Assembly (NCBI GenBank): GCA_949775045.1
Contig: OX459101.1
Span: forward strand, 8,168,601 to 8,232,600
Direction of reading: 5' to 3'
DNA length: 64,000 nt
Source: Metridium senile
Lineage: Eukaryota; Cnidaria; Anthozoa; Actiniaria; Metridiidae
The notes under the pieces were generated by a model, which was not told where the DNA came from, made no database searches, and worked only from the letters and a program-made list of their open reading frames with translations. The position numbers were made by a program, and so were the translations under genes. Of the stretch, positions 625 to 61,106 are shown in pieces (the first letter of the stretch is position 1; each line of letters opens with the position of its first letter).

Positions 625-630
625 GCAGCG

Positions 631-10856: not shown

Positions 10857-11430
10857 CTGGGAATTCATTCAGCAGCGCTCTTCTGTCTTCAGAGGAAATG
10901 GGTGCTGTACGGCTCTCCTCGATCGCCATTCGCCATTCGTCAACAACAGATCCTGGAGAGTAATGATGCATAATTCTCAGCAAAGCGTCTTGAATTTGCG
11001 GCCACAGATCATTGAACTCATGTTCGGTAAGGTCCATTTCATAAGTATGAGCATATGTTTCATTGCGGTGGAACTTGATTCTTGCTTCTACAGAAAGGTC
11101 GTTGTCATTCGGTAATTTATCCCATCCTGTGGCACGAGGCTCAGTGATGTTGTAAATGTTTCTGAGCAGCTTCACTAGCAAAGTCAAGTCGAAATTTTTT
11201 GACTCGCCGTAAGTCGTATTCGAAGGGAAAAGTTTCACCATCTCAATTTGAGCTATAATCTTTCTTGCTTTCAAAGCTCGGTGATTTTGAAGAATACGTG
11301 GAAGTATCGAAGGATCGTGAATGCTGTCGAACAATCCTCGCAAGATTTTTGTTCCTGCTTGAATTAAAACTCGAGAAAGTCGAATAAACTTGTCACTTTC
11401 CGGTGTTGGTTCTAGGGCTGCTTCGGCCAT
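10857..11430 (-). pseudogene. Orphan DZIP3-like HEPN exon (copy D)
   Basis: This encodes 191 residues from the conserved start MAEAALEPTPESDKF to the splice donor CAG/GTACGT at 10856, phase 1, exactly as in the other copies. The HEPN RNase motif is intact (RNETYAH). No Roc, COR, TRADD-N or Impact exon follows on this strand; the next 700 bp are repeats. Its upstream promoter homology stops after about 18 bp, where a MITE end begins at 11448. It was probably the first exon of another HEPN gene that has lost both promoter and downstream exons. The open frame argues for recent isolation or for retained use. Confidence 0.7.
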
Positions 11431-12091: not shown

Positions 12092-12180
12092 CATCATCAC
12101 TATCATCATCAATATTACCATCATCATTTCTCGATAATACATTATGTCGTCATTATGAATATTATCATCATCGCTAACAT
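12092..12180 (+). repeat. CAT/ATC simple repeat in COR intron
   Basis: Short runs of ATCATC and CATCATTAT; the matching intron of copy B has a shorter version near 51900-52015. Confidence 0.8.
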
Positions 12181-13666: not shown

Positions 13667-14690
13667 GTAGATGATGATGATGATGTCAAAAATGATGATA
13701 ATCTTGATAGTAACAATAATGGTGATGATGATGATGTCAATGTGTCTGTTAATACTCGAAGTATCATATATTTCTTTCTTATGTACACCTTATCAAAGAA
13801 TATATTACATGCTATTGAGTTGTTCTACAAGAACCCTTAAAAGGTCTATTACCATGTATTATTTATCAACCTCATTCTATTGTTAGGGTGAAGAAGGAAA
13901 AGTACCTAATTCATTTACAATGGGGAGACATACCTCTGACTTCATACACTCCAGACAAGCAGTTTACTTCATATATGATAATAATTATTGCTGGGGGATA
14001 GGGGTCCTTTTTACTTTATTACCCATATGGAAAAGGGGTACCCCTTACATCATTTTCCTCATTCTCCTTCAGGGCAGGGCTACTAACTTTATTGATAATA
14101 TATTGATATAATTGTTGTGATATCTTTGACTTCTTTGTACAAGTGACAGAGAAGATGAGACTGCCAACGAAAGACTACCTTCAAGACTAACTGGAAATGA
14201 ATCTGGTAAATAACTATTGATGGTGACTATGATGACGTATAGATGACGATGATGACGATGATGAAAATGATGATTGTTATGATGATGATGATGATGATGA
14301 TAACGAGGAAGGTCATGAAGATGATGGATTATGATGGTGATGATGATAGTGATGATGGATTATGATGATGATGGTGATGATAATGATGGTGATGGATTAT
14401 GATGATGATGGTGATGATGATGGTGATGATGGATTATGATGGTGATGATAATGGTGGTGATGATGGATTATGATGATGATGGTAATGGTGATGAAAGTAA
14501 ATGATTTTGATTGTGTTGATGACAATCACGACGATGACCTTAATTGAAGTTGTTGGTATCATAATCTCCTTTGTGATCATTATCAGTATTATCATCATCA
14601 TTACCACCACCATATCATCATCATTGTTACTACCATTACGACGACGACGACCACCATCATTATCATCATCGTCACCATCATTATAACCAA
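13667..14690 (+). repeat. GAT-rich simple repeats between the two Death exons
   Basis: GATGATGATG-type repeats, densest at 14220-14480, then one unit of the TATCATCATCATTGTTAC type near 14605-14640. That single unit is the counterpart of the large 26-bp array at 48895-50195 in copy B. Confidence 0.85.
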
Positions 14691-16363
14691 TATTGTCATT
14701 TACTTGTTGTCTTGAGGGCCATATTCAGTGGTATTAAAACTAAGAGTAAAGTACAAAAAGTTATACCAAGTTATTATCTTTCTTGAAATAGAGGAAATAT
14801 GTATATTGAATCTGCCTGACAAATCCTGTTCAAGCAGTCATGCAGCTTTTATTCTACACAAAAATATAAACATCTTATTAACAAGCTGCATGTTTCGTGG
14901 TCTTCCTGCTTGACTAGGAAGATCAGTTGGTTACTCGTAATACATAGATTGCATAAAACTAGCAGAGTTATAAATGTAATCATAAAATGTATATAAAGTA
15001 TTGTAGTTCTCAAAACCAGTGTAAAACTTAATCAATTTGTGGTCAGTAGAAAATCTTTCAATCCCAAATCTTTCCAAGGTTAATTGGTTCTTCAGCATTT
15101 CACATCCAGTCTCTAGACTTTTTCAGCTATTTTTTCTTTAAACCTGAGGATTTCTAGTCTCAAACTTTCTAGTTCTTTCTGTTCACTTTCTTCCAAGTAA
15201 CTGAGTAATAGACCAATAATAAAAATATAAGTTTACTCCATCTACACCATGCAGTTAACATGTTATAGTCATATTTACCTGTTTTCTTTTACTTCTACTT
15301 CTTCTACACTACTTGACTGCTTAGATCTTAAATAAAAATAGCAGTGTTCTAAAAAAATACTATTTTATTTTGCAAATTGTTTAATTAATTCACAATTTGA
15401 TATTTAACTATATTTAAAAAACATTTGATTGGTCTTGGTGACAGGAGTATTGTCAAAACATAATAACCAATATTGAATATCGTTTTCATGTTCGCGCCAA
15501 TAATATTAAGAATAGCGATGGTTAACTACTCACAGTAAGGTCCAGGTTGAAATCCCAGCTCCGCATGGATTATATGAGTAGATTTTGTTTGATGTGTTGT
15601 TCTCTTCCTTACAACAAGGGTTTTACGGTTCTACTTCCTTCTACTTGCCAATTTCTTTATGTAAAATACAAGGAAATTCCTTAACACAATTTTTTTTGGT
15701 AGGTTCCACACTACTGCCTCCATCTCAGTGTATCAAAAAAGAAACACTGGAAAAGTCTCCAATTACTCACAGACTAACTCAAGCACTCAAGATTTACCTT
15801 GATCCAAAAAGGCCTATGGGAAAAGATTACCAAGATCTGGCGGGCAGTTTTGGTTATAATAGTGTACAAATACAGTACTTGGGAACCATGGACTCACCGA
15901 CAGTTACACTTCTAGAAGAGAACAATCAGTGCACAATTGAACAATTACGTGATAAATTGAAAGATATGGGAAGAGATGATACAGTTGGTGTCATTGATGA
16001 GTTTGTCGAACAACATGCAACTGTGAAAATTGTAGCCAATAACACCATTTCAGTTGTCAAGACAGTCCATGCAGGTTTTGTCACAGACTGTTGAAATTGT
16101 TGAAACATCAGCAGTCTCGGGACCACAAAACATACTGTTTCCCTCGTTCCTAGGTAATAAGTGTTAAATATCATATAACCGTATTTACTCGCTCGCGTGC
16201 CCCTAATTAAAAACATGCAGTCTAGTCACGTGATGGGGGGTCGTACGTCTTTTGTTGAGCAGGCCGTAAAAAGCCGTCCGGACCGCTTAAAAAGGCGTAC
16301 GAACCCGCTTGCGAAAAAACATAGAAAATGGAAGGGTCATATGATAAAATGCTTATTGAGTCG

Positions 16364-17139: not shown

Positions 17140-17658
17140 AAGTGAAGTGCTGCGAGGAAAAGGAAATAATTTATACAATACCAATTTGCAATACCACCGC
17201 AATAAGACATTTGCTAATATTTCGAAAATGAAGCTAACTAAACATGATTTCAATGAATTTTGGCCGCGAATTCAAGCACAGGCATCCCAAGCAATTCACT
17301 TTTACAGTAGAGATATGTGAGGAAAAACTCAATATTTTTTATTGAAATAAATTTGAACATATTTCAATCCTGTGTTGTTAAACTTATTTGGTGTCATTCT
17401 GGGTGGTTTTTAAACGTTTTAGAGCATTTTTTTTTATTTTTTGCCCACCTGTACTTAAATATGGATCCATATTCAAATAAGTTTAACAAGAACACAGGAT
17501 TGAAATATGTTCAAATTTATTTCAATAAAAAATATCGAGTTTTTCCTCACATATCTCTACTGTAAAAGTAAATTGCTTGGGCTGCCTGTGATCAAACCGC
17601 TTTGCTGAGAATTGTGCAAGATTACTCTCCAGAATGGAGGACTCCATTTAGCCTGAAG
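17140..17658 (+). pseudogene. HEPN fragment E, split by a MITE
   Basis: The plus frame reads LQYHRNKTFANISKM, LTKHDFNEFWPRIQA up to 17275, then after the MITE TALLRIVQDYSPEWR up to a stop. This matches the C-terminal half of the HEPN exon. The catalytic His is Asn (RNKTFAN). The N-terminal part is absent. The right duplication arm keeps the start of the same fragment near 46008-46070, so it predates the duplication. Confidence 0.75.
17276..17591. mobile_element. MITE, 316 bp, CACAGGCAGCCCAAGC ends
   Basis: Long inverted arms: CACAGGCATCCCAAGCAATT at 17276 and the inverse of CACAGGCAGCCCAAGCAATT at 17591, extended through ACAGTAGAGATATGTGAGG and into AATTTGAACATATTTC. It sits inside HEPN fragment E. 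Confidence 0.85.
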
Positions 17659-27898: not shown

Positions 27899-28734
27899 CA
27901 TCACCATCACAATTATCACCATCATCATCATCATTTATCTTTATTGTTATTATCGGTCACTATTACCGCATAAACCCCTATAATTGCCTACCTTCTCAAA
28001 GATCAGCCATCTTACAGGAATATGCTCACCCATGTATGGCTCCATCTGCAAAACATCATTGATCTTCTCTTGTAATCGCTGAATTCCTTGATCAGCCAAT
28101 GACAGGGTATTATTTACAGTGAAAAAAGGCTTTACCAAATGTTGCTGAAAACTCTTTCCAGAAATGCTCTTCTTAATGAGCACTTCCATTTCCTTAGTGT
28201 CTTCAAATGGACAGTCTGCATTGGTACCGACCACGATAACTGGCGGTCGCGAATAGGGAAGTTTTCCAGGAATTTTCCTGGAATCTGTATTCTCTTGATC
28301 CTCTTCCTGGTCATTTACTGGCAGAATGCTATTTATGGAAGCTAACCAAGAGAGAATTGATTCAAGATTCGTTTCTTTATCTGTATTTTCCAGTTTTTCA
28401 TAGGTCCCTTGCCTCACACATGACTCTGCCTCAGATTTAAGATCTTTACTAAGGTTGTAGACCATCAAATACAGCGCCCTAGGTGACAAAAACACAGGGT
28501 GCGAGGCGTAGTACAAATGTTGCCCCGCAAAGTCCCATATACTGAAGATGGTCTGTGGCTCCGTGGGAGAGTCATCGAGGCTTAAGCCTTGCAAGTAATG
28601 AATAACTTTTTCTATAACGTTTTCTGGGATCGACTCTTTTGTATTGTTGATGCTATCGCTTCGAGGTTCTTCTGTGTCTGGTGTTCTGTTGATATTGTTT
28701 TCATTCCTATCGGTATCATCTTCGGATGGTTCCT

Positions 28735-29000
28735 ATGAATCAATGAATGGATTGGCATAAATGAATGAATAAATGAATGAATGATTAGCTTGGCATAAAT
28801 AAATGAATGAATGAATTAATTAATTGAAATGAATGAGTAAATAGATTGACATGAATGAATGAATGAATTGATAGAGATGAATAAATGTATGAATGAAAAT
28901 ATGAATAAATAAATAAATAAACCAAAGTTATGTATGAATAAATGAGTGCATTTTTGAATGATTGATGGAATGGATGGATGAATAAATGGATTGATGGATA
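28735..29000. repeat. ATGA/TGAA microsatellite in Roc intron
   Basis: Irregular GAATGAATGA repeats; the copy B equivalent is about 53985-54255. Confidence 0.85.
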
Positions 29001-29102
29001 CATTTATAATTGAATGCCCGTGAAGTACAAATATTTAATCAATTAATATTATCAATCAAATAATAAATCAGTCAAACATTATATTTAAGAATGAATTGTT
29101 TT

Positions 29103-29372
29103 TTTATAAAATATTTGATTTAAAACGCGCGCTCTGATTGGCTGAGAAGCGTTCTCTATAACTCAACAGTGCACGGAGCATCGATTTGTTTGATTTTAAC
29201 TACTGAATATTTTATAAAAGAAATAGAAAACTCGGCAGCAGTGCTCTATCGAGTTACAGAGCACTTGGGGATTTTAAGAAGACTCGAGAAACGCTTCTCG
29301 CTTCTCGTCTTCTTAAAATTCCCGCGTGCTCTATAACACGACAGAGCACGCTGCCTCGTTTTCTATTTCTTC
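29103..29372. mobile_element. Inverted-repeat insertion absent from copy B
   Basis: Copy B runs GAATTGTTTTACATAAG without it. The element has paired arms of the AGAGCAC...GTTTCTCG type and the AACGCGCGCTCTGATTGG motif shared with 20034. Confidence 0.7.
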
Positions 29373-30619
29373 AACATAAGATGATCAACTAACGATGATG
29401 ATGATGACAATAAAGAAAGTGATGATGGCATTGATATTAATGATAGTGACGATGTTATTAATAACGATGATATTGATGAGGATGATGACGACAATGCTGA
29501 TGATAATTATACTAACCACATGACGTCGATGATAATAATGATAGTAGTGATGATGGCTTAGTTTGTCATTATCAATCGGACGATGGTCGATGCTGATAAT
29601 AATATTGATGATTATAACTACCTTATCAATGATCGGCTCTGCCACCTTGTCTGCATCCTCCACATCCTCCTTCTTTTCTTCCATATCCTCCTCCTTCTTT
29701 TCTTCCACATCCTCCTCCTTCTTTTCTTCCATATTCTCCTTCTTTTCTTCCACATCCTCCCTCTTTTCTTCCACATCCTCCTTCTTTTCTTCCAAATCCT
29801 CCTTCTTTTCCTCCTCTTCAACATGTTTAAGATCATCAGCGATCAACCTAGCAATGTTGTCTGTAAAGTCAGTCTGAGTGCATTCAGTTATTTTCTGCCA
29901 ATTCTTGACATTATCAACATCAATGCTGCAACATGAAGGATCAACCTCGACTCCCACTGTGCTTTCTTCGTAAGGGTTGAACGGCAGTCCAAGGAGTGAC
30001 TTCTTAAGGCTTGTTTTACCTGCTCGTGCTTGTCCCACAAGCATGATACGACCTCGATTAACGACAACCTTGCCGTGCTTTAATGCCTTACGGTATGCGA
30101 GTTCTGCTTGAGGGCCTCCTCCTTTTATCTCGGCGGGAACTAAGGAAGAAAAAATAAAATACAAATTGACATATCTGTACAGAGGGTCCTGAATTGTGGG
30201 TCCGAATCCCATTTCCCAGTTTTTATTTGGACCAAATCCCAGTCAAAAATCACATAATCCCATCAGTTTTGCTCAAGTTTTCAATCCCATTCCCATTTTC
30301 TATTGTTCTTTTATTTGTAAATTCCAGTCCCAGTGCATCTAATCCCATTTTCCCAGTCAAAAATAAGGCCAATCCCAGCTCCCATTTTACCCCTTCAGGA
30401 CCATCTGTACAAAATGCAAACGTGCATGATGTGTGCTCTCATAATGCACGTGTCTCACCTGTACCAATCAGAATGCTCCTATGGCAGGAGTGTTCATAAT
30501 CAACTCGCCTACAGACAAACTCGCCACCAAAAATAGTTGCGTACCAACAAAATATTTCTTCAAATGTTAACTTAAAGTTTTAAAATAATAAATAGGTATT
30601 ATTTTTCCAATACTTTATA

Positions 30620-34495: not shown

Positions 34496-35216
34496 ACTAT
34501 ATCTTCAAAAATGATTGAAAGTGATGCAAAGTGACCCTGACACATAAACAATTGTTAATTATTAGTTTTTGAAATATATGTGTATTGCCTAATAAAGCCT
34601 TGTAGCTTGCTTTCAACATACCTGGGAATTCATTTAGCACTGCTGCGTGACTGTACTCAAATATAAGTGATACAGGTTTATGGCTCTTCTCAATCGCCTT
34701 TCGCCATTCGTCTACAGATCCTGGAGAGTAATGATGCACAATTCTCAGCAAAGCGTCTTGAATTTGTAGCCACAGATCATTGAACTCATGTTCAGTAAGT
34801 TCCATGTCCGGAGTATTAGCAAATATATGATTGCGGTAGTACTTGATTCTTGTTAAATCTGCTTCTAAAGAAAGGTCGTTGTCTTTCGGTAATATATCCC
34901 ATCCTGTAGCAGGTGCAGTGAGGTTGCAAATGTTTCTGAGCAGCTTCAATAGCAAAGTCAAGTCGAAATTCTTCGACTCGCCGTAAGTCGTGCTCGAAGG
35001 GAAAAGTTTCACCATCTCCTTGTGACTTATAATCTTGCTTGCTTTCAAATGATTCAGCATAGCTCGGTGATTTTGAAGAATTCGTGGAAGTATCGAAGGA
35101 TCGAGAATGCTGTTGAACAATCCTTGAACGATTTTTGTTCCTGCTTTAATTAAAACTCGTGAAAGTCGAATAAAATTGTCACTTTCTGGTGCTGGGGCTA
35201 GGGCTGCTTCGGCCAT

Positions 35217-38445: not shown

Positions 38446-39120
38446 TCCTGTAAAAATATGTTGGTGAGTAATAAAGGCCTAGTAGAGATTTCTCATGATG
38501 GCAAAATATTGGACGCTGTAGCACAATAAGTATTTTCATTTGTATAACAATGATCTCATTGTCTTTGAGAAATTATTAAAACAAGAAATTAATTTCTTTT
38601 ATTCCCATAATACTTTGACAATGAGATTACTGAAAAGACTTGATGCGTAAAAGCTGCGTCAAAAATTTGCCATTGTGAGAAATCTCTAGTTACTGCGTTT
38701 TTTTTATCTTTTTTCCAAAGCCTATTATAGATGGTTCTCTAATATGACAGTGCTAAAATATTAAAATATCTGTTTACTTGTAAATCTCATTTTCCACTAT
38801 TTATGAAAGTGGTCTATATCATAATTGGTTTTTATAGATAATGGCTGATGGCTATTGTACGTCTGAAAGGAACTGGGTCATTGATATTAATTGGTTATTA
38901 TTTAAGGCCTCTTGTGGCAGAAAATGAATTTACTGCACAATAAAAAAAATAAAATAAAATTGAAGAAGAGCTTATGAAACTATGTTTAGCATATCCCCTT
39001 GCATAGATTGTATACATAACCACAAATCCTACTTGTCATGCAGTTGCCATCTGCTGTTTGCAAAGCTATTTAGTTGATCTTGATAGGCCTTCATGTCAAA
39101 ACAATCAAAGATTTGCCACA
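38446..39120. other. Intergenic, nothing recognised
   Basis: AT-rich sequence with no convincing gene or element. Confidence 0.45.
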
Positions 39121-39123
39121 TAT

Positions 39124-39622
39124 TGAGGTAGGGAGGGAGGGAGGTAGGTAGGTAGGTAGGTAGGTAGGTAGGTAGGTAGGTAGGTAGGTAGGTAGGTAGG
39201 TAGGTAGGTAGGTAGGTAGGTAGGTAGGTAGGTAGGTAGGTAGGTAGGTAGGTAGGTAGGTAGGTAGGTAGGTAGGTAGGTAGGTAGGTAGGTAGGTAGG
39301 TAGGTAGGTAGGTAGGTAGGTAGGTAGGTAGGTAGGTAGGTAGGTAGGTAGGTAGGTAGGTAGGTAGGTAGGTAGGTAGGTAGGTAGGTAGGTAGGTAGG
39401 TAGGTAGGTAGGTAGGTAGGTAGGTAGGTAGGTAGGTAGGTAGGTAGGTAGGTAGGTAGGTAGGTAGGTAGGTAGGTAGGTAGGTAGGTAGGTAGGTAGG
39501 TAGGTAGGTAGGTAGGTAGGTAGGTAGGTAGGTAGGTAGGTAGGTAGGTAGGTAGGTAGGTAGGTAGGTAGGTAGGTAGGTAGGTAGGTAGGTAGGTAGG
39601 TAGGTGGGTGGGTGGGTGGGTG
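39124..39622 (+). repeat. (TAGG)n microsatellite, about 480 bp
   Basis: Essentially uninterrupted TAGG units from about 39142 to 39605, edged by GGGA and GTGG variants. Confidence 0.98.
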
Positions 39623-40971: not shown

Positions 40972-43900
40972 CTACTTGTGCTTCCCTTTTCCCTTTTTCT
41001 GCTTGGTTTGCACTTGTTCAGCACCACTACCACTGCTCTTACTACTAATAATAAGCTCTCGCTCAAGGCCCATCTTGATAACCTCTGAAGCACATGTGTT
41101 AATATGTTTAAATCTGTCAGGTCCAAGAGGGATTTCTCCATGCCAGCGTGTCACTATGACAACCACATCTTCCACTTTAGATACTTCTAATAGTTCCGAG
41201 AGTCTTTTGCCTGCTCTATTCTCACCATCATCACGGCCTTCTTCGAGATAGCTCTTCTTGTCTTTAACGTAGATCCTGTAAGCATACATGTTATACTTTG
41301 CTTTTGCAATATTATTATCCTCCTTCAATTGTTCCAACACCTGTTCAACTTGATCCTTTGATGTAACATGGGCGAGATGAGCCTGGAATTTACTCTTTCG
41401 ATCTGTAATCACCTCACTGTGAATAATGTCATAGGCAGCTGGTGCTTGTCTTTCTGCCTTTGCTTGGCGGGTGAGTTTCATTAACTTATGTGCCTTTCTG
41501 GCAATTTTATATTTCTGCATTTCAAATTCATACTCAAACATTGCTAAATGTTTTCGTATTTCTTGTTTAGATATCTTTTTTCCTGATAGATTACGTGACA
41601 GTAATAGTTCCAAGGCACGTTCATTAATATGCTTATACACGTTCATATGCAGATACACGTCTCCTTGCCAACAAGTCACTATGACAACCACGTTTGTAGC
41701 GTCAATATACCTCAGCAAATGTTGGAGTCTCATTCCTGCTAAATCTTCGTCATCATCATCACTGTCCTCGATATAAGTTTCTTTATCCCCATCATAATAT
41801 CTGTAAGCCCACACAGTGTTGGTTGCTTCAGAATACTTGGGGTCTTGCTCTATGTGATGTAGTACTTTCTCGATTTGATCCTTTGAAGTGAACTCCGCAA
41901 GATGGGCTTGAAATTTGTTTCCCTGATCTACAATGGGCTTTCCATGGACGATGTCTAGGGAAAGTTTTTCGAGTTTCTCTGTGACTTCTTCGATTTCTGT
42001 GAAAATAAACGTTTTCTCTTTCGTAAGAATCTACCTGACGGAAAGTATTGGATACAAATTTGATATGTATAACTATTGCTCGACGTTTATTGTGTATATA
42101 TTTATTAACTATTATTTGCTTTTTTCATCATAAATCACCGTCGATTATAAAACACCGATACAAACATTTCTAAAGACCACATGTACACCCGGATGATAAC
42201 AACTCACCATCGATTTTCAGACATCAACACAAACAGTCTTTCTCAAGACTACACACAACCGGATGATAACAACTCACCACCGATCGATTATCAGAAACCA
42301 ACACCAGACTTTCTCAAGACTACCACACCTGGATGATCACAACTCACCATAGATTATCAGACATCAGCACCAACAGTCTTTCTCAAGACTACACACAACC
42401 GGATGATAACAACTCACCACCGATCGATTATCAGAAACCAACACCAGACTTTCTCAAGACTACACACACCTGGATGATCACAACTCACCATAGATTATCA
42501 GACATCAGCACCAACAGTCTTTCTCAAGACTACACACAACCGGATGATAACAACTCACCACCGATCGATTATCAGAAACCAACACCAGACTTTCTCAAGA
42601 CTACACACACCTGGATGATCACAACTCACCATAGATTATCAGAAACCAACACCAGACTTTCTCAAGACTACACACACCTGGATGATCACAACTCACCATA
42701 GATTATCAGCACCAACAGTCTTTCTCAAGACTACACACACCTGGATGATCACAACTCACCATAGATTATCAGAAACCAACACCAGACTTTCTCAAGACTA
42801 CACACACCTGGATGATCACAACTCACCATAGATTATCAGAAAACAACAGTATTTCTCAAGACTACACACTCAGCTCATCAGCATCAGCTTACCTTTTTCT
42901 TTATGCTGAGTCAGTTCATCAAAGAAAATTAGTGCATCCTGGTATTGTTCGTCAGACATAGTAACTTCTATTTCCATGTGTTCACCAAGCTTCTGGGTTT
43001 CGATAAGAACTCTTTCAAGTGAAGATCTCAAATCACCGTTCTTATACCTTACAAAAATAAGTAAACATATCAAATTGTGGTGTGGTGTTGTTTGGTGTGG
43101 TATGGTGTGGTCAGTGTGTTTTGTTGTGGCATGATAGTATGATATGGTATTATGTCGTATACTGTTGTTGGGTGTGCTGTGGTATGGTATGGTGTGATGG
43201 GCTGTGGTCTTCTCTAGAATAGTGTGGTATGGTATAGTGTCAGTTGTGGTATGATAATGTGTGGTGTGCTGGGTTTTGCTTGGGTCTTTAGTGGCATGCT
43301 ATGTTGTGGTAAGGTATATTGTGTTGTGGTATGGTATGGTATTATGTAGTTTGGTGGGCTTTGCTGTGGTCTTTAGTGACGTGCACGTGGTGTAGCCAGT
43401 GCCACTCCAGTATGGTATAGTGTGTTGTGGTATGGTATTGTGTGGTTTAGTATAGTGGGTTATGCTGTTGTCTTCAGTGGTATATTATAGTAATCGGGAT
43501 TTATTTACAACATATAATACCTTTCCCAGAGATCCAGAAGGGCTTCAATAGTTTTAACACGTAGCTGAATGTTGATGGAGCCATCGAACATATTCTGTAC
43601 AATTATATCTCTTCCTGGGAACATGTTTTGAAATTTATCCAATAGTGTTGGAATGGGAACTTCAGAATCCAAGGATAGAATGAAATCGCCAACACCACTG
43701 ATATGAATCACCATTTCTAGAAATCACAAAAAATGCTTTTAGCCTTAAACTAACTTTTCAACTTTGGACGTACCAAAACCCGAGAGAGAGGCTTACTGGT
43801 CCGGGCTTACTGGTCCGGGTTCGATTCCCGGCCCGGGCGATTGTTTTATGTCCTTGGGCAAGACACTTACTCTCTATGTGCCTCGTCTTCTCGGATAAGG

Positions 43901-44764
43901 ACGTAAAGCAGGAGGTCCCGTCTGCTTTCACTCTAATCCTATTTAAGGTGGACGTTAAAGATCCTGTTGTGCTATTCACAAAGAGTAGGGGATTGCCTCC
44001 CGGTACAAAACAGTGATCAGGCATCGGAGACATCACTAACAACACTCATGATTGTATTAAACTGCTGGTTTTCAGAAGTCCGATAAGTCCTCCATAAACA
44101 CATTAGATTGTAAAGCATTATGAGCTATTCGAGAGATATATCTGCAAGCATTCTTGCTTGCTTTTAACGTACCTGGGAATTCGTTTAGTAGTGCTGCTTT
44201 GTCTCTAGATGAAATAGGTGCTGTACGGCTCCTCTCGATTTTCATTCGCCATTCCTCTATAGATCCAGCTGGAGAATAATAATGCACAATCCTTAGCAAA
44301 GCATCTTGAATTTGCGGCCAAAGATGATTGAATTCATGTTCAGTAAGTTCCATTTCATAAGTATGAGCAAATACAGTATTGCGGTGGTACTTGATTCTTG
44401 CTAAATCTGCTCCTAAAGAAATGTCGTTATCGATTGGTAATGCATTCCATCCTTTAGCAGGCGCAGTGAGGTTGCAAATGTTTCTGAGCAGCTTCAATAG
44501 CAGGGTCAAGTCGAAATTCTTCGACTCGCCGTATGTAGTGTCGGAAGGGAAAAGTATTTCCCACTCCGTTTGATTTATAACCCTTTTTCTTTTCAAATCC
44601 TCCAGAACAGCTTTGTGATTTTGAAGAATCCTTGGAAGTATTGAGGGATCGTAAATTTTGTCGAACAAACCTCGAACGATTTTTGATCCTCCCCTAATTA
44701 AAACTCGCGAAAGTCGAATAAAATTGTCACTTTCTCGTGTTGGTTCTAGGGCTGCTTCGGCCAT
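40972..44764 (-). CDS. HEPN / TRADD-N-like / double Impact protein (gene C)
   Basis: Exons read right to left: 44764-44173, 43716-43521, 43047-42893, 41996-40972; 655 residues with phases matching at every junction (1, 2, 1). Exon 1 is a DZIP3-like HEPN domain with an intact RNase motif (RNTVFAH). Exons 2-3 (residues about 198-314) form an alpha/beta region with LLDLWERYKNGDLRSSLE and IEVTMSDEQY, resembling TRADD-N domains of cnidarian immunity proteins; this call is tentative. Exon 4 has two Impact/UPF0029 domains at about 328-435 (GNKFQAHLAEFTSKDQ) and 510-615 (KSKFQAHLAHVTSKDQ, LGPDRFKHIN), separated by a basic helical linker, and ends in a Lys-rich tail. IMPACT proteins are known to bind GCN1 and restrain GCN2. 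A link between RNA cleavage and translation control is inference. No stops or frameshifts. Confidence 0.82.
42183..42860. repeat. Minisatellite of about 66-72 bp in gene C intron 3
   Basis: About ten units containing CTTTCTCAAGACTACACAC and GATGATCACAACTCACCA, alternating between CCGATCGATTATCAG and CATAGATTATCAG forms, so a higher-order unit of about 140 bp is visible. Confidence 0.92.
43080..43480. repeat. GTGGTATGGT-rich low-complexity tract in gene C intron 2
   Basis: Irregular TGTGGTATGGTATGGTGTG phrases on the plus strand. Confidence 0.8.
43795..44050 (+). mobile_element. tRNA-derived SINE in gene C intron 1
   Basis: GGTTCGATTCCCGG at 43818 is a canonical box B; an 18-bp duplication, CTTACTGGTCCGGG, precedes it and no clear box A remains. 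The body has CCTTGGGCAAGACACTTAC, a core found in conserved metazoan SINE domains of the Nin/V-like type. It is not a functional tRNA because the acceptor and D arms are missing. Confidence 0.65.
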
Positions 44765-47601: not shown

Positions 47602-50600
47602 TTATTGGCTACAATTTTCACAGTTGCAACCATGTTGTTCGACAAACTCATCAATGACACCAACTGTATCATCTCTTCTCATCTCTTTCAATTTATAACG
47701 TAATTTTTCAATTGTGCACTGATTGTTCTCTTCTAGAAGTGTAACTGTTGGTGAATCCCTGGTTTCCAAGTACTGTATTTGTACACTATTATAACCAAAA
47801 CTGTCCGCCAGATCTTGGTAATCTTTTCCCATAGGCCTTTTTGGATCAAGGTAAATCTTGAGTGCTTGAGTTAGTCTGTGAGTAATTGGAGACTTTTCCA
47901 GTGTTTCTTTTTTGATACACTGAGATGGAGGCAGTAGTGTGGAACCTACCAAAAAAAATTGTGTTAAGGAATTTCCTTGTATTTACATAAAGAAATTGGC
48001 AAGTACAAGGAAGTAGAACCGTAAAACCCTTGTGGTAAGGAAGAGAACAACACATCAAACAAACTCTACTCATATACTCCATGCGGAGCTGGGACTTGAA
48101 CCTGGTCCGTACTGTGAGTAGTTAACCATCGCTATTCTTAATATTATTGGCGCGAACATGAAAACGAGGCGAAGCACGGTGGTTCAAAATTCAAAATGGC
48201 GGCCGAGCATTGTTGTGTTCCGCTGTGTTCAATCAGTATAGAAAATCGCACGATCTTGAGTACAATTAGTGAATTAATAGGTACAAGTGATGTTTTGAAA
48301 ATTTTCAAAATTGGACGAGCCTTTAGGCGAAATTAAGAAAAAAAACGGAATTGAGCTTTCATAACTTTCATTAAACAATAAAATGGCAATGGATATTGAA
48401 GATAAAACGAGAAGAAGGGAGAAATTTTAAGGTGAAAAATCTTGTTATTTGCTGTTTTAACTCGAGTTCTAAAAAAGTATGAACCTCAATGTCCTCGAGT
48501 ACGGTATCTTTAAAGCTAGATTTGCTTCCCTGACAGCTTGATACGTACATTTGACCGATAGTGAAATGAGAGTTTTTATATGGAATTTAAAAGTCAAACA
48601 TCAAAAGACTACAGATGGATACTGAACCGTCGCTGTCTTTTGACAGGAGCTGTTCCGTCCATCTTTGCATATTTTGTGTAGAATGAAATACTTGACTGCT
48701 TGAACAGGATTTGGCAGTCAGCCTAATATACATATTTCCTTCATTTCAAGAACGATAATAACTTGGTGTAACCTTTTTGTACTTTACTCTTGGTTCAATA
48801 CCAATTAATATGGCCCTCAAGACAACAAGTAAATGACAATATTGGTTATAATGATGGTGACGATGATGATAATGATGCTGGTCGGGTCGTCGTCGTAATG
48901 GTAATAACAATGATGATATGGTGGTGGTAATAATGACGATGATATGGTGGTGGTAATAACAATGATGATATGGTGGTGGTAATAATGACGATGATATGGT
49001 GGTGGTAATAACAATGATGATATGGTGGTGGTAATAACAATGATGATATGGTGGTGGTAATAACAATGATGATATGGTGGTGGTAATAACAATGATGATA
49101 TGGTGGTGGTAATAATGACGATGATATGGTGGTGGTAATAACAATGATGATATGGTGGTGGTAATAATGACGATGATATGGTGGTGGTAATAACAATGAT
49201 GATATGGTGGTGGTAATAACAATGATGATATGGTGGTGGTAATAACAATGATGATATGGTGGTGGTAATAATGACGATGATATGGTGGTGGTAATAACAA
49301 TGATGATATGGTGGTGGTAATAATGACGATGATATGGTGGTGGTAATAACAATGATGATATGGTGGTGGTAATAACAATGATGATATGGTGGTGGTAATA
49401 ACAATGATGATATGGTGGTGGTAATAACAATGATGATATGGTGGTGGTAATAACAATGATGATATGGTGGTGGTAATAACAATGATGATATGGTGGTGGT
49501 AATAACAATGATGATATGGTGGTGGTAATAACAATGATGATATGGTGGTGGTAATAACAATGATGATATGGTGGTGGTAATAACAATGATGATATGGTGG
49601 TGGTAATAACAATGATGATATGGTGGTGGTAATAATGACGATGATATGGTGGTGGTAATAACAATGATGATATGGTGGTGGTAATAACAATGATGATATG
49701 GTGGTGGTAATAACAATGATGATATGGTGGTGGTAATAACAATGATGATATGGTGGTGGTAATAACAATGATGATATGGTGGTGGTAATAACAATGATGA
49801 TATGGTGGTGGTAATAACAATGATGATATGGTGGTGGTAATAATGACGATGATATGGTGGTGGTAATAACAATGATGATATGGTGGTGGTAATAACAATG
49901 ATGATATGGTGGTGGTAATAACAATGATGATATGGTGGTGGTAATAACAATGATGATATGGTGGTGGTAATAACAATGATGATATGGTGGTGGTAATAAC
50001 AATGATGATATGGTGGTGGTAATAACAATGATGATATGGTGGTGGTAATAACAATGATGATATGGTGGTGGTAATAACAATGATGATATGGTGGTGGTAA
50101 TAACAATGATGATATGGTGGTGGTAATAACAATGATGATATGGTGGTGGTAATAACAATGATGATATGGTGGTGGTAATAATGACGATGATAATACTGAT
50201 ATATGACCAACAACTTCAATTAGGGTCATCGTCGTGGTTGTCATCAACACAATCAAAATCACTTACTTTCATCATCATCATCATCATCATAATCCATCAT
50301 CTTCATCACCTTCTTCGTTACCATCAACATCATCATTATTATCATCATCATCATAATGCATTACAATCATCATTTTCATCATCACCACCATTATCGTTAC
50401 TATCACTCCATTATCATCATTTTCGTCATCATCATCATTATCTACCTGGAGTTTCTGGCCTAACAGCACTGCCAAGGTATCCACAGTATTCCAACGCTAG
50501 ATCAGACAACTGCACGGTAGGATGCGTTAACGCTATATTTAGAGATTCATAATTAGCAGACGATCCTTGAATTTCTGTCCATCTCTTTAGAACAGTATAG

Positions 50601-53600
50601 CAGCGCCCCTTAAGCTGGATCTCATCAGTTTCGATTTCATCCAAATCTGCTTCGCTCAGGCCAAGTCCTCGACCAAGTACTTTCCACTTGTCTCCTATGT
50701 CACACGCTATGTCACACGCTAGGCACATGAGTTTGTCTGTTGGGATGGAGCCTTCGGCGGGCTGTGAGAAAAAGCACGTTTATACTTTAGAAGTATATCA
50801 GATTTACTTCAAAACAGCTATTTTAAACTGAGGAAAAAATAAAGATTCAATTATGTTCAATTATTATTATCTTAGTCACAGTGTTTCTGAAATCTTTTTA
50901 ATTATATGTGGATTTGGAGTTGCGCGAGGTTTAGATAAGGTTGGGTTCTGAGTCGCTTATGATGATGTAAACCCCTTTATAAAGTTCACGAGCGGAGTCG
51001 AGTGTCGCGAAGAACTAGTTGTGCATGATTTGAGTTAGGGTGTGGTTCGAGTCGCGCGTGGTTCGAGTTAACAAGTAAATGGTACATACCTTTGGTGTGG
51101 GATACCAAACTTTAAGGTTCTGTACTTCAGGTTTCGTATCTTTACCGAAGCTCTTTGTGCAAACAAGAACTTGTTGGGGGCTCACCTCCAATAGATGTAT
51201 ACAATCATCGTTACTGCATCCAACTACCCTGTGTTTCGCACACTGTTTAGACGATTGACAGCATGACGGGCACAGCACAGTGAACTGATACCTCAACGAT
51301 CGATACCAATTGCATTTGTCAGAAATCTCTCTAAGCGTCGATTCGATAGAAAGTCGAACCGACACTGCTGGTTGATAAAGGCACGACTTCCTTTCTTGTA
51401 TACTCTTTAAAACTACCTTGATGAAACGTTTTCGGCAGATTAGAAACAGTTCGTAATCCGACGACTTCCCGATGATGAAACGAGAAACGTTTCGGTAAAG
51501 ATTCGGCTCGTGTTGGCCTCCATCGACAGACTTCGAGTACCAACCAATGAACTTTGATATAAAGTACGAGTACAGCCCATGTGGGACGAACCCGTCGACG
51601 AAATCCACGTACAGTGCGCATGGTCCTACGGAGGAGGGCTGTGTGTCGACTAACTCTGGTGATGATCTGAGTTGCGCAGGAACGAAGTAGCGGGCGTCGG
51701 TACCTTCCTCGAAGCGAGCGATAAGCCCATAATGCTCCATCATGGACAGAAGATCTTCTTTACTCGGAAAACTATCAAGTAGCTCGCCAAACACGTGCTC
51801 TACGAGCTCCATGCGGAGGATTCCACTTTCCTCAAGGTCGTTCCAACATTTCTCAAACTTGGGATAACGATTCTGGGAATGATACATCATATGATCATAA
51901 TAATGATGTCCTGTTGATATTAGCGATGATGATAATATTCATAATGACGACATAATGTATTATCGAGAAATGATGATGGTAATATTGATGATGATAGTGT
52001 TGATGATGACCACAAAAAATCATTTAAATGAGAACACATGAAATTGCACGGTGTAGCGCCCATCCAGCAACTCGCCATCTTGAATGGTAGTGGGGCCTTT
52101 TGCATCAAAGCGAAACGAACGTTGGGCTTGCAATGATACTGAGAGACTTTCTAACACCTTGTGGGACAATTATTCACGCGTCTCTATCATTGCAAGCTCA
52201 ACATTCTACTCTATGCAAAGGCCCGGCTACCTTTCAAGATGGCGCAGGGAACTGTGAAGGGGACTATTGGGAGACAAATTGCTGAAAAAAATAAACAATT
52301 AATGTAATATCGCCTTTTAGACCGCTACTTTACCTTGTCGTCGTAAGGTCTAACGGTAATCAACTTCCTAAAGAGATCGATAAGCCACTGTGCTTGCAAA
52401 ACCACCGTGTCACCGTGTTTGATGATGACACCAAGGTCATGATAGTAGTCTAACATAGCATGGATTTCATTACTTTCTTTTATGAAGCACACTTCCTCGA
52501 TTATCTTTTCCAGATCTGGTAGTAGAAGGTGATAGGTATTCTTTTCTACCAAAGCTTTGATCGCCTTGAACGTTAAAAGATTTAATTATTTACTAGTGAA
52601 ATCTGACAAAAACATGTCATCATAAAAAACATCATCATCATCATCATTATGATCATCATCACAAGGCCATCACAATAGAGTACCGAAGTGATGATGTCAC
52701 AATTTTGATTTTTTATCTTTTCGTATTCAGACTACTTTCATCATAGAATGCTAGTCAAAATATAGGCTGCCCGAAAATTTGGGATCATTTGAGTGTGAAA
52801 CGGCTGAGATATGATTTTTTGAATGTAAAATTTTGTCCATACAAAGTCTCTTATTTTTTGCCCTGAGTTCCAACCGGTTAGAACAAGGCCAAAAATAAGA
52901 GACTTTGTCTGATGGAGAAAATTTTACATTCAAAAAATCATATCTCAGCCGTTTCACACTCAAATGATCCCAAATTTTCGGGCAGCCTATTTTTTGACTA
53001 GCATTCTATGATGAAAATTATTTGAATAGAAAAAGATAAAAAAAAGATTGTGACGTCACACTTCGGTACTCTATTATCACCATCATTATCATCAATATGA
53101 TCACCATCACAATTATCACCATCATTATCATCAATATGATCATCATCACAATTATCACCATCATCATCATCATTTATCTTTATTGTTATTATCGGTCACT
53201 ATTACCGCATAAACCCCTATAATTGCCTACCTTCTCAAAGATCAGCCATCTTACAGGAATATGCTCACCCATGTATGGCTCCATCCCCAAAACTTCAATG
53301 ATCTTCTGTTGTAATCGCTGAATTCCTTGATCAGCCAATGACAGGGTATTATTTACAGTGAAAAAAGGCTTTACCAAATGTTGCTGAAAACCCTTTCCAG
53401 AAATGCTCTTCTTAATGAGCACTTCCATTTCCTTAGTGTCTTCAAATGGACAGTCTGCGTTGGTACCAACAACGATAACTGGCGGTCGCGAATAGGGAAG
53501 ATTTCCAGGAATTTTCCTGGAATCAGTATTTTCTTGATCCTCTTCCTGGTCATTTACTGGCAGAATGCTATTTATGGAAGCTAACCAAGAGAGAATTGAT

Positions 53601-56600
53601 TCAAGATTCGTTTCTTTATCTGTATTTTCCAGTAGAATATCATAGGTCCCTTGCCTCACACATGGCTCTGCCTCAGATTTAAGATCTTTGCTAAGGTTGT
53701 AGACCATCAAATACAGCGCCCTAGGTGACAAAAACACAGGGTGCGAGGCGTAGTACAAATGTTCCCCCGCAAAGTCCCATATACTGAAGATGGTCTGTGA
53801 CTCCGTTGGAGAGTTATCGAGGCTTAAGCCTTGCAAGTAATGAACAACCTTTTCTATAACGTTTTCTGGGATCGACTCTTTTGTATTGTTAAGGCTATCG
53901 ATTAGAGGTTCTTCTGTGTCTGGTGTTCTGTTGATATTGTTTTCATTCCTATCGGTATCATCTTCGGATGGTTCCTATGAATGGATTGGCATAAATGAAT
54001 GAATAAATGAATGAATGAATGGCTTGGCATAAATAAATAAATTAATTAATTAATTAATTAATTGAAATGAATGAGTAAATGGATTAACATGAATGAATGA
54101 ATTGATTGATAGAGATGAATAAATGTATGAATGAAAATATGAATAAATAAATAAATAAACCATGTTATGTATGAATGTTATGTATGAATAAATGAGTGAA
54201 TTTTTGAATGATTGATTGAATGGATGGATGAATAAATGGATTGATGGATATTTATAATTGAATGCCCGTGAACAAACGAATATTTAATCAATTAATATTA
54301 TCAATCAAATAATAAATCAGTCAAACATTATATTTAAGAATGAATTGTTTTACATAAGATAATGATCAAATAACGATGATGATGATGACAATAAAGAAAG
54401 TGATGATGGCATTGATATTAATGATAGTGACAATGTTATCAATAACGATGATATTGATGATGATGATGACGACAATGCTGATGATAATTATACTAACCAC
54501 ATGACGTCGATAATGTTCTTCCACATCCTCCTTTTTTTCTTCCACATCCTCCTTCTTTTCCTCCTCTTCAACATGTTTAAGATCATCAGCGATCAACCTA
54601 GCAATGTTGTCTGTAAAGTCAGTCTGAGTGCATTCAGTTATTCTCTGCCAATTCTTGACATTATCAACATCAATGCTGCAACATGAAGGATCAACCTCGA
54701 CTCCCACTGTGCTCTCTTCGTCAGGGTTGAACGGCAGTCCAAGGAGTGACTTCTTAAGGCTTGTTTTACCTGCTCGTGCTTGTCCCACAAGCATGATACG
54801 ACCTCGATTAACGACAACCTTGCCGTGCTTTAATGCCTTACGGTATGCGAGTTCTGCTTGAGGGCCTCGTCCTTTTATCTCAGCGGGAACTAAGGAGGAA
54901 AAAATAAAATACAAATTGACATATCTGTACAAGGGTCCTCAATTGTGGGTCCGAATCCCATTTCCCAGTTTATATTTGGACCAAATCCCAGTCAAAAATC
55001 ACATAATCCCATCAGTTTTGCTCAAGTTTTCAATCCCATTCCCATTTTCTATTGTTCTTTTATTTGTAAATTCCAGTCCCAGTGCATCCAATCCCATTTT
55101 CCCAGTCAAAAATAAGGCCAATCCCAGCTCCCATTTTACCCCTTCAGGGCCATCTGTACAAAATGCAAACATGCATGATGTGTGCTCTCATAATGCACGT
55201 GTCTCACCGGTACCAATCAGAATGCTCCTATAGCAGGAGTGTTCACAATCAACTCGCCTACAGACAATCTCGCCACCACAAACCCGCCACCAAAAATATT
55301 TGCTTACCAACAAAATATTTCTTCAAATGTTAACTTAAAGTTTTAAAATAATAAATAGGTATTGTTTTTCCAATACTTTATAGAAAATCTCGGCAAAGTG
55401 ACTTGTACTTGTACAGTACTTGACAATGATCACTAGAGTGATTTTCATATGACCGTGATGAGAAAATAGACCATTTAGTTTGTAGTAGTTGATAAAGAAC
55501 AAAAGAAAACAATGGATTTAGTGTTTACTACTTAACTATTAGTTTGTCTATTCTTTCACGGTCATAAGAAAATCACTCTATCAAATGTTTTTTTGCGTTT
55601 ATTGATCAAATATTGTTACAATGATTCGCTCAAAATTGTATCTATATAATGTGATAAAAAAGATTCTTTAAATACATATTTTAGGAATGAATGTGCGATC
55701 ATATGGAAACCAGGCTTTAGGAGTCATCATTTTGCCAGACCATCTATATTTAAAACAGATTCCAAGCCAATTAGCCAATCGAATTGCAATGTCTCTGCAT
55801 ATATCATTCATATATGCATAAGATTTAAGTTACTTTTTCATAAAAAAAAACCAACGGACAGAAGCGAAATATGATTCTAACAATAGCTAGTCTGAGAGAA
55901 CGTTAACTCGGGATAATGGGCTCCTGCTTATAGCTATTTTATTTTGTAAGGAGTCCTGAATAAAAATACTGTTTTACTATCCCATATAGGACACAACAGC
56001 ATGAACCCCTGACAGAGATGCTTGCGGAGAAGGCTAAGGTTACTGACACTTCGGTGGCTACTGAACCCTCCATCAAAGTAAAAATAGTTACCTTCAGTGT
56101 CCATTACAACTTTAAAGAGTATTCCTGTCGTGAAATAAATATTTTAGTCACAAACTAGAATGATGATGTAATGTAATGTAATATATATAATGTAATGTTA
56201 TATAATGTATTAAAAAATTCATGAATAATTAATGAGACATTTTCAAAAGAAACCATGACCATGACGAGTGTTGTAAATCTGATACAACACTAGTGTTGTA
56301 TATCCTGATTTGCATAAGTTTTAACTGGTAATTTTACGGCAAAATTTATTTTAATCTTGAAAATTTTGGTCAAATATGAAAGAGCTTACCTAGACATTTT
56401 TTAAGTAGTTTACAACATTCGCGTCCGTGTTGTATCGGCGATACAATCGCGCGCCTTCGGCTTGCGATTGTATCTGCCGATACAACACGGCCGCTCATGT
56501 TGTAAACACTACATGTAATGTAATAATGTAATGTAATGTAATTTAATGTAATGTAATAATGTAATGTAATAATGTAATGTAATTTAATGTAATGTAATAA

Positions 56601-59600: not shown

Positions 59601-61106
59601 CTGATCACACGATAGAGATGTACTAATATAGCCTATCAGGAGTGTGAACAGGAATGTACATGTCCAATGAAGTATATTAGCCAATCAGCAATGTACACAT
59701 ATAGTACGTATTACATATCTACCGCATGCTAACTATAGGAGGGCGTCTTTTGCAATCGGTACCGTTGCAGTATACATATATACTTAGTATTCGCCTTTTT
59801 GCCCACCCACCCTCTCCTGTAGGTAGTCTTGAGTCATATGTGGTTTTCTAAAGTTTTATACTTTTATTCATACAATAATTATAGGAATTACCCCACGTAG
59901 GGCACATGTCAGTAGGACATGTTATGATTTATATATGAATTGTTATAATAAATAGATATATTATAGATGTAATAGTTATGTTTTGTATGTGACAATAAAG
60001 ACTACTTAATCCCAAGCTGTGAGTGATGTCTTGTGTGTCTAGCTCAAATCTAAATGTAATCAAAATGTCAAAGTAATCATATTAATAGTCAATTCCATCA
60101 AACAAAATGCCAAATCCGGTAATCAAAATGCCAAAGTAATCAAATGAAAACTCAATGCCATTAAACAAATCGAATTGTATGCGGACTCTTCGGAAGCAGG
60201 AACCCATTGGACGAAAAACCATTGGAAAAACCCATTCTCACTACTAGTTTTAAGTGATTCCAACTACTCAAACCAAGATTGAAGTGAATTTTGACTCAGA
60301 ACTAAGATTTAAGTAATTTGAACTTGGTTCAAGCATAGTTAATGTCCAGGGGTTGGGGGTGGGAGGGGGGGGGGGGGGGGGTACTCCCTTTGTCCAAGTG
60401 GTAGGGGTGATTGCGGAGGTGGAGGTTTTGAAAACCACCCCTTAAACAATTGTTAATTATTAGTTTTTGCAATATATGTGTAAACCTAAGCATTCTAGCT
60501 TGCTTCCAACATACCTGGGAATTCATTCAGCAGCGCTGTTCTGTCTTCAGAAATAGGTGTTCTAAGCCTCTTCTCAATCGACTTTCGCCATTCGTCTACG
60601 TATTCAGATGCTGGAGAGTAATGTTCCACAATTCTCAGCAAAGCCCCTTGAATTGGCGGCCAAAGATGATTTAATTCATGTTCAGTAATGTCCATTTCAT
60701 AAGTATGAGCAAATGTAGTATTGCGGTAGTACATGATTCTTGCTAAATCTGCTTCTAAAGAAAGGTCGTTATCAATTGGTAATGCATTCCATCCTGTAGC
60801 AGGCTCAGTGAGGTTGCAAATGTTTCTGAGCAGCTTCAATAGCAAGGTCAAGTCGAAATTGTTCGACTCGCCGTATGTAGTGTCGGAAGGGAAAAGTTTT
60901 TCCCACTCCGTTTGATTTATAACCCTTTTTCTTTTCAAATCCTCCAGAACAGCTTTGTGACTTTGAAGAATCCATGGAAGTGTCTTAGGAAAGTTAATGT
61001 AGTCGAACAATCCTCGAACGATTTTTGTTCCTGCTTGAATTAAAACTCGAGAAAGTCGAAGAAAATTGTCACTTTCCGGTGTTGGTTCTAGGGCTGCTTC
61101 GGCCAT
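47602..61106 (-). CDS. HEPN / Roc-COR GTPase / Death / Death-like protein (gene B)
   Basis: Exons read right to left: 61106-60515 (HEPN, RNTTFAH intact), 54889-54498 (Roc part 1, GQARAGKTS), 53974-53231 (Roc part 2, DFAGE, TNAD), 52564-52334 and 51872-51090 (COR with Cys-rich tail), 50761-50446 (Death), 47945-47602 (Death-like, stop). Frame holds throughout; about 1133 residues. ROCO GTPases use the COR domain to dimerise and Death domains to recruit adaptors; HEPN domains with R-x4-6-H are often RNases. A membrane-free cytosolic sensor-effector is inferred. Oddities: a deletion removed the original Roc part 1 donor, so a nearby GTTAGT donor in the right phase is assumed; the Gln after DFAG is Glu; the first Death exon has a 12-nt in-frame duplication (ACDI); a 4-nt insertion alters the last residues relative to copy A. 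Confidence 0.75.
48895..50195. repeat. 26-bp minisatellite, about 50 units
   Basis: The unit AATAACAATGATGATATGGT plus GGTGGT, with a recurring variant AATAATGACGATGATATGGT, fills about 1.3 kb of the intron between the two Death exons of gene B. Copy A has about one unit at the same place. All three minus frames stay open because the unit has no stop in any phase. Confidence 0.97.
50270..50445 (-). repeat. ATC/GAT simple repeat next to Death exon 1 of gene B
   Basis: CATCATCATCATAAT phrases. The equivalent intron stretch in copy A is much longer (13667-14495). Confidence 0.85.
52675..53074. mobile_element. MITE with ATAGAGTACCGAAGTG ends (copy B)
   Basis: Same element as 26865-27269, in the intron between the second Roc exon and the first COR exon. 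Confidence 0.85.
53985..54255. repeat. ATGA/TTAA microsatellite in Roc intron of gene B
   Basis: GAATGAATGA and TTAATTAATTAA runs; counterpart of 28735-29000. Confidence 0.85.
55340..56160. other. HEPN-Roc intron, non-coding
   Basis: Homologous to parts of 30560-32490. Contains an inverted repeat at 55433-55581 (CACTAGAGTGATTTTCATA with GAAAATCACTCTA). Confidence 0.5.
56212..56508 (+). mobile_element. Short non-autonomous relative of the adjacent Crypton
   Basis: Begins TTCATGAATAATTAATGAG and ends ATACAACACGGCCGCTCATG then TTGTAAACA. Both ends match, in inverted orientation, the ends of 56702-59110. A hairpin GTTGTATCGGCGATACAATC lies inside. Located in the TAATG array. Confidence 0.65.
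56509..56701. repeat. TAATG microsatellite between the two Crypton-type elements
   Basis: AATGTAATAATGT units, the continuation of the array that copy A has at 32502-33555. Confidence 0.9.
56702..59110 (+). mobile_element. Crypton-like tyrosine-recombinase element
   Basis: The left end is TGTTTACAACATGAGCGG and the right end CTCATTAATTATTCATGAA. The ends are not inverted repeats of each other, as expected for Cryptons; they are the reversed ends of 56212-56508. Copy A has no insertion here. A tandem repeat of about 31 bp lies at 58859-58919. Confidence 0.65.
56894..58799 (+). pseudogene. Degraded Crypton tyrosine recombinase
   Basis: Fragments in order: NTKWAVKLFHEWQFKRQ (about 56985), YPPKTLYILA followed by a stop in place of a usual Cys (57226), EEEKIFWEKELLGQ and YFYCGKLFGLRANEQR (57480-57600), then about 550 bp of T-rich insertion, then SPVGINTLTKILPDKLC, TLHCLRITCASRLFQ, RERTGHRS and LYRYQKPS (58370-58560). 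These are the DUF3504/Crypton tyrosine-recombinase blocks, with the catalytic R, HxxR, H and Y visible. Frameshifts, a stop and the insertion inactivate it. The tail past 58600 is Ser/Asp-rich. Confidence 0.8.
59111..60440. other. Microsatellite remnants and non-coding intron
   Basis: TAATG units and two copies of GTGAATGTGAAC...CAGTGAGTTTTT-type sequence at 59185-59340, then AT-rich DNA. A poly-G run at 60362-60380 leads into GGTACTCCCTTTGTCC, an end of the 16745-17060 repeat family. Confidence 0.5.

Follow-up and report, generated by a model that had tools for sequence, protein, structure and literature searches.

A HEPN, TRADD-N-like and double Impact gene beside IMPACT in the sea anemone Metridium senile

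The window analysed here, a 64,000-nucleotide stretch of the Metridium senile genome (C7:8168601-8232600), contains an intact gene, copy A, in which a HEPN domain, a divergent TRADD-N-like region and two Impact domains are joined in one predicted protein. The architecture is already present in databases, where it is unnamed; what is new is the Impact domain as a partner of HEPN and TRADD-N. Gene A lies on the minus strand (44764-40972), with its ATG at 44764 and its stop codon at 40974-40972. It consists of four exons separated by three GT-AG introns in phases 1, 2 and 1, and its 655 codons run without internal stop or frameshift. The initial annotation had read one intact gene of 655 residues with four exons in consistent phases here, and its coordinates prove exact. 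The domain order that it gave, HEPN - TRADD-N-like - Impact - Impact, also holds, by Pfam matches and, for the TRADD-N-like part, through relatives. No tRNA was found by ARAGORN in intron 1, and a tRNA-derived repeat suspected there by eye is a guess. The features of the gene are as follows.

44764-44173, minus strand: exon 1, ATG and HEPN_DZIP3 domain, residues 1-197, donor in phase 1 (gene model and Pfam)
44363..44383, minus strand: HEPN motif R128-N-T-V-F-A-H134 (sequence and the rule in PMC3710099)
43716-43521, minus strand: exon 2 (phase 1 to 2), opening part of the putative divergent TRADD-N region, which includes the G-S motif of the turn (gene model and alignment)
43047-42893, minus strand: exon 3, second part of the putative TRADD-N region, phase 2 to 1 (gene model and alignment)
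41996-40972, minus strand: exon 4, Impact domains 1 and 2, linker, basic tail and stop codon (gene model and Pfam)
41608..41919, minus strand: Impact domain 1, degenerate (61.7 bits)
41077..41400, minus strand: Impact domain 2, near-canonical (103.2 bits)

The HEPN domain is the clearest N-terminal module. The Pfam family HEPN_DZIP3 (PF18738) matches residues 41-162 of protein A with an E-value of 4.5e-40 and 137.2 bits, against a curated cut-off of 27. The motif in A is Rx5H with a polar residue after the arginine, in agreement with the rule for the HEPN superfamily in PMC3710099 (Rx4-6H, the residue that follows R being polar). Nine HEPN copies were compared by eye, namely the six of the cluster described below and those of three database relatives, P0001-P0003; eight retain the arginine and the histidine, and the exception is a solitary exon. 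This retention suggests catalysis, and R128...H134, which the initial annotation had called an intact catalytic motif, indeed looks catalytic. Protein A shares the PF18738 domain and the Rx4-6H motif with the DZIP3/hRUL138-type animal HEPN proteins treated in PMC3710099. The fusions in the table of that paper involve TPR, Zn-ribbon, RING, ankyrin, CARD, NACHT, DEATH and LRR modules, whereas the Impact pair belongs to protein A; in its main text "UPF0029" does not occur and "impact" occurs once, in a reference title.

The genome search covered 389,276,800 bases in 169 contigs and gave 93 HEPN_DZIP3 matches, among them the six HEPN exons of this family in the cluster region. The HEPN exon donor is in phase 1 in five of these six copies, and none was found for the sixth. 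Besides exon 1 of gene A, the window contains three related HEPN exons, found by genome search and inspection, and a HEPN fragment.

60515..61106, minus strand: HEPN exon, motif kept, with neither a TRADD-N nor an Impact partner recognised
34622..35216, minus strand: HEPN exon, histidine of the motif changed to asparagine, with neither a TRADD-N nor an Impact partner recognised
10857..11430, minus strand: HEPN exon without recognised partner inside the window, motif kept
17186-17308, plus strand: HEPN piece of 41 residues

Splicing of the solitary HEPN exons to ROC exons would be phase-compatible at the one ROC acceptor examined, where no linking evidence was seen; in a second ROC copy the string matching that acceptor was not found.

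The middle region of protein A is probably a divergent TRADD-N domain, and it is the weakest part of the domain call. The Pfam model PF20694 gives 16.4 bits with the whole protein and 20.1 bits with the region as a piece, both below the cut-off of 23.7, so that the TRADD-N-like reading of the initial annotation is upheld through relatives. First, the same model gives 24.2 bits with the paralogue B, just above the cut-off. Second, similar exons exist at other places in the genome: of 58 candidates scored, those of the C7 cluster included, 28 match one or the other exon at E 0.01. Cassettes with the same intron position were read at six further loci of eight fetched, L026 and L027 being the two left out. 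Three of these six were spliced and scanned with PF20694; L020 and L024 score 23.9 and 31.8 bits, above the cut-off, and L022 scores 20.6 bits, below it. Third, 10 of 12 aligned TRADD-N pieces match PF20694 at E 0.01 or better, each alone. For these reasons (copy B, the L020 and L024 cassettes and the ten pieces), the view that the call has no basis was set aside; the window copy alone would be insufficient. A uS motif in the turn between beta2 and beta3 of TRADD-N, with C allowed for S, is described in PMC8195603. At this turn, as placed by the alignment, eight of the 12 pieces, including the window copy, have G-S, one has S-S, one N-S and two K-C. Among the database relatives, P0001 and P0002 reach 16.6 and 21.7 bits, both below the cut-off, and P0003, which does not contain most of the region in the alignment with A, gives no match. 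Besides the sub-threshold score of the window copy, three observations count against the functional reading that we prefer below: the window copy is shorter in this region than its relatives; a profile of the 12 TRADD-N pieces did not find a TRADD chain in the PDB; and the absence of most of the region from P0003 suggests that the module is dispensable in some members. The three PDB chains that this profile did retrieve (E 0.044, 0.18 and 0.24) were taken as chance.

The two Impact domains called in the initial annotation are confirmed by Pfam, where UPF0029/Impact (PF01205) matches protein A in two stretches (E 2.9e-46). They differ in their state of preservation. The T-R-W signature of Impact 2 is kept in all seven proteins compared; in Impact 1 the same seven have T-C-W or S-C-W, and the G-G that follows this signature is gone from all of them. 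Which further signatures Impact 1 has lost differs between the proteins, DRKS being retained in P0001. Impact 2 of protein A keeps DRKS, DDGE and GPDRFKHIN, and has H-G-E versus the Y-G-G of the Metridium IMPACT protein. In a tree of 20 Impact domains (20 of 21 rows, one truncated domain of the three in P0004 being omitted), Impact 1 and Impact 2 form one group each, with modest support of 75/70 and 88/86. This grouping suggests that Impact may have been doubled before these anemones diverged.

The genome search scored 14 Impact candidates and found 12 matches, all of which fall within one 97-kb stretch, C7:8113810-8210519. One of them belongs to the ordinary IMPACT gene, composed of RWD and Impact, with the RWD in the upstream exon (E 6.3e-17). 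The other eleven belong to copies A, B and C and to three broken copies. Copy B (C7:8122635-8118577) lies about 87 kb from A and encodes 660 residues in four exons of the same phases and order. Copy C has exons 2-4, with no HEPN exon nearby. Broken copies and solitary HEPN exons are present in the same array.

A protein search, which goes part of the way towards the proteome search that the initial annotation had suggested, found HEPN together with Impact in three of nine database relatives, P0001-P0003, which come from Actinostola sp. and Actinia tenebrosa and combine HEPN_DZIP3 (PF18738) with Impact (PF01205). The nine were drawn from the 8000 candidates sharing most words; two further protein searches scored 8000 and 3196. 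P0001 (Actinostola sp. QZH41_007462) is 50% identical to A over 92%, and P0002 and P0003 (Actinia tenebrosa LOC116292323 and LOC116292303) are 39% and 38% identical to A; all three are uncharacterised. As in A, HEPN_DZIP3 is followed in each of them by two Impact domains, and the TRADD-N region is present in P0001 and P0002. They align with A along their length, except for the TRADD-N gap in P0003 and the end of P0001, which lies inside Impact 2. The longest contig listed for P0002 equals in length the one listed for P0003, which suggests a local pair in Actinia too.

Protein A may also be compared with fusions that are already described. In PMC8195603, cnidarian TRADD-N domains are reported in fusions with HEPN, RIG-I-like receptors (RLRs), Macro/PARP and other antiviral domains, and HEPN N-terminal to TRADD-N is among the arrangements described there. 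With these fusions of the DEDD2/TRADD clade, protein A shares a HEPN domain N-terminal to TRADD-N, a variable C-terminal module and a lineage-specific expansion in a sessile marine animal. It differs from them in its C-terminal module, the Impact pair; the word "impact" does not occur in the main text of that paper. If the sub-threshold TRADD-N match is accepted, protein A would belong by order, variable partner and expansion to these shuffled HEPN-TRADD-N proteins. A literature search, with most subscription papers and all preprints outside its scope, found no description of the order HEPN - TRADD-N - Impact. It also found no paper joining UPF0029 with HEPN, and the HEPN and cnidarian papers did not carry the term "IMPACT domain". 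The claim of the initial annotation that no described protein has this order was thus too strong: this search brought up no paper against it, but the database entries P0001-P0003 carry HEPN_DZIP3 and UPF0029. The architecture had been catalogued, an outcome that the initial annotation had named as refuting, at the level of unnamed sequence entries.

As to function, we tentatively favour, at somewhat less than an even chance, a cnidarian fusion of the innate-immune type in which TRADD-N would bring partners together, the HEPN domains would cleave RNA as pairs, and the two Impact domains would target the protein. Through its TRADD-N region the protein may associate with further proteins that carry TRADD-N, such as RIG-I-like receptors. 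Such clustering would allow the HEPN domains to pair, whereupon RNA would be cut. The Impact pair could bring the protein to the translation machinery or to some other conserved partner of Impact; in infection or cell stress, RNA would then be cleaved locally or translation would be arrested. There are several data consistent with an immune setting. First, cnidarian TRADD-N domains are fused to HEPN, RLRs and Macro/PARP, as reported in PMC8195603. Second, many N-terminal DZIP3-like HEPN domains are described in corals in PMC10236652. Third, at L020 the TRADD-N cassette is followed, after about 1 kb and in the same orientation, by helicase exons, possibly of the same gene, and the 144-residue piece of these exons that was tested has RIG-I as its best match (E 1.7e-21).

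The Impact copies adjoin an intact IMPACT gene and are fused to immune-type modules, and Impact 1 is degenerate in all seven copies compared. These features would also suit an integrated decoy or scaffold. Pathogen factors that target IMPACT or translation-stress signalling would then be lured by the Impact copies, the assault would be signalled by HEPN and TRADD-N, and the role of HEPN may be no more than RNA binding. Integrated decoys exist in plant immune receptors, to which such a protein may be likened. The dN/dS ratios between A and B can be read on both sides. The linker has a ratio of 1.44, with a wide interval (0.63-6.11), as a decoy might; Impact 2 is conserved (0.39, 0.19-0.83), which speaks against one. 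The ratios of the other parts are 0.33 (0.17-0.67) for Impact 1, 0.48 (0.31-0.77) for HEPN and 0.57 (0.30-1.01) for TRADD-N. The HEPN motif kept in eight of nine copies, suggesting catalysis, also argues against a decoy, and we know of no pathogen factor directed against IMPACT in anemones. On balance we consider a decoy unlikely.

A different role for the Impact domains would be to modulate GCN1-GCN2 signalling and tie it to RNA cleavage, a link that the initial annotation had drawn. Protein A shares with IMPACT/Yih1 a C-terminal UPF0029/Impact domain, and its best match among solved structures is the IMPACT homologue 6bqi (E 1.9e-23), which Impact 2 resembles. It differs from them in having two Impact domains, the first degenerate, with HEPN and TRADD-N in front, and in giving no RWD match in Pfam at E-values up to 1. 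This difference bears directly on the proposal. According to PMC7140605, overexpressed Yih1, or its RWD alone, inhibits the starvation response through competition for Gcn1; what the ancient (Impact) domain does is described as unknown in that paper and as elusive in PMC4503747. The GCN1/GCN2 reading is weakened because the competition is ascribed to the RWD, the part without a match in A. On the other side, PMC4503747 maps stretches of Yih1 that are enough to bind Gcn1, actin and ribosomes, and these overlap the linker of Yih1, so that a role outside the RWD is conceivable. With no RWD match in A, and given the statements in PMC7140605 and PMC4503747, a GCN1 link by homology was set aside, and a regulator of this kind appears distinctly improbable. 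The overall interpretation of the initial annotation is thus partly supported: the gene, the order, the HEPN motif and the TRADD-N call hold, while "no described protein" was too strong and the GCN1/GCN2 link is weak.

It may be asked whether the family has a selected role at all. The complete copies A and B differ under purifying selection: dN is 0.140 and dS 0.271, giving a ratio of 0.52 with a bootstrap interval of 0.40-0.67, and none of 1000 replicates reached 1 or more (NG86). For copy C selection is less clear than for A and B, which counts against the functional reading that we prefer. The A-C ratio is 0.66 (0.47-0.95) by the NG86 bootstrap, on which our statements about selection rest rather than on YN00; by YN00, A-C is 0.84 and B-C 0.97. 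These B-C and A-B values, the latter not strict, would suit a drifting tandem family whose copies arise and decay and whose window copy no longer has a selected role, as would the presence of broken copies and lone HEPN exons in that array and the shortened TRADD-N of the window copy. Such drift is very unlikely in view of the uninterrupted reading frame of gene A, the A-B bootstrap and the order conserved in other genera.

Finally, the window holds three solitary HEPN exons of the same family and at least one ROC exon nearby whose phase-1 acceptor is compatible with the HEPN donor, as an artefact of the gene model with exon 1 taken from another transcript might require, but this is extremely improbable and was set aside, since copy B and P0001-P0003 appear to share the order and intron 1 of gene A is short (456 bases). 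Exon 1 is most likely part of gene A, because copy B has the same four exons and phases about 87 kb away, because the A-B ratio is 0.52, and because three of nine database relatives combine HEPN with Impact.

The arrangement of the locus gives some clues regarding the origin of the fusion. Within about 120 kb lie IMPACT, which is the likely donor, the complete fusions A and B, broken copies, and HEPN exons that stand alone. The TRADD-N cassette of A is in phase 1 at both ends, and in the ordinary IMPACT gene the donor of the RWD exon and the acceptor of the Impact exon can both be read as phase 1, as candidates only. Joining exons of this phase keeps the frame. The simplest and likely history is duplication beside IMPACT combined with joining of phase-compatible exons. 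The last exon of IMPACT would have been duplicated in place and then doubled; HEPN and TRADD-N exons of phase 1 would then have been linked to the resulting Impact exon, before the fusion was duplicated in tandem. This locus may be the birthplace of the fusion.

With this gene, Impact joins the list of cnidarian fusion partners of HEPN and TRADD-N. It is the domain of a translation-stress regulator, its own role being described as unknown in PMC7140605. The boldest reading, which we regard as doubtful, would be a translation-directed immune nuclease built by exon shuffling beside IMPACT, in which signalling brings RNA cleavage to the machinery watched by IMPACT or an integrated decoy senses attack on IMPACT, in an animal. 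Two questions become testable in anemones: what the binding partner of the Impact domain is, and whether targeted immune RNases or integrated decoys are found in animals.

The HEPN exon at 61106, a solitary one among the related HEPN exons with no recognised TRADD-N or Impact partner, has exons for Roc, COR-A and Death domains downstream of it. A second copy of this gene is also present and appears to be split:

47602-54938, minus strand: Roc GTPase, COR-A and two Death domain exons (Pfam cut-offs)
12159-16094, plus strand, and 27950-30242, minus strand: second copy of the Roc/COR-A/Death gene, apparently split (open frames, by eye)

In the first copy, the Roc GTPase and both Death domains score above the cut-off, the COR-A match falls below it, and the phase-1 acceptor on the first ROC exon is compatible with the HEPN donor. 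By eye, only the ROC part of the second copy is on the minus strand; the exons that come later, with the Death parts, are on the plus strand. This arrangement of exons appears to resemble the result of an inversion.

Repeats and one long open frame were also recorded in the window:

42185-42869: minisatellite in intron 3 of the HEPN/Impact gene
39120-39610: GGTA array, a long simple repeat
48746-50262: long tandem repeat stretch
511-4371, plus strand: 1286-aa open reading frame

The minisatellite can be read as roughly ten copies of a 67-base unit or five copies of a 141-base unit, and intron 2 of the same gene carries TGTGG-type repeats. All three minus-strand frames are open across the tandem stretch. 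The 1286-aa frame, judged by eye, resembles a DNA polymerase of a Polinton-type element and may encode one; no Pfam match was found for an 82-aa piece from one of its ends.

Several database proteins share domains with the HEPN/Impact gene. Actinostola sp. QZH41_003581 (P0011, 387 aa) contains HEPN_DZIP3 followed directly by a piece reading like the linker and the start of Impact 2, without TRADD-N and without Impact 1; it may be either a fourth HEPN plus Impact model or a fragment. The Exaiptasia diaphana 'Protein IMPACT' (P0014, 385 aa) has an Impact domain that clusters with Impact 2 in a tree of 20 Impact domains, followed by a Roc-like P-loop stretch that, at 22.5 bits, does not reach the cut-off of 27. 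This may represent Impact joined to ROC in another anemone, or else a model artefact. P0004 (569 aa, source ena) has an acidic repeat N-terminus and then three Impact domains, and no HEPN match was found in it.

TRADD-N exons like that of the window gene also occur elsewhere in the genome, including L020:

C3:3524500-3533500, one strand: TRADD-N cassette and RIG-I-like helicase exons (reading frames, domain searches)

An additional frame here, on the same strand as the cassette and helicase exons, is TRADD-N-like by eye, and no Pfam match was found for it. It is possible that L020 encodes a TRADD-N RIG-I-like receptor. At three other loci (L023, L026 and L027; C3, about 1.0 Mb), TRADD-N exons lie upstream of same-strand HEPN exons. 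These loci may therefore place TRADD-N ahead of HEPN, the opposite order to that of the window gene.
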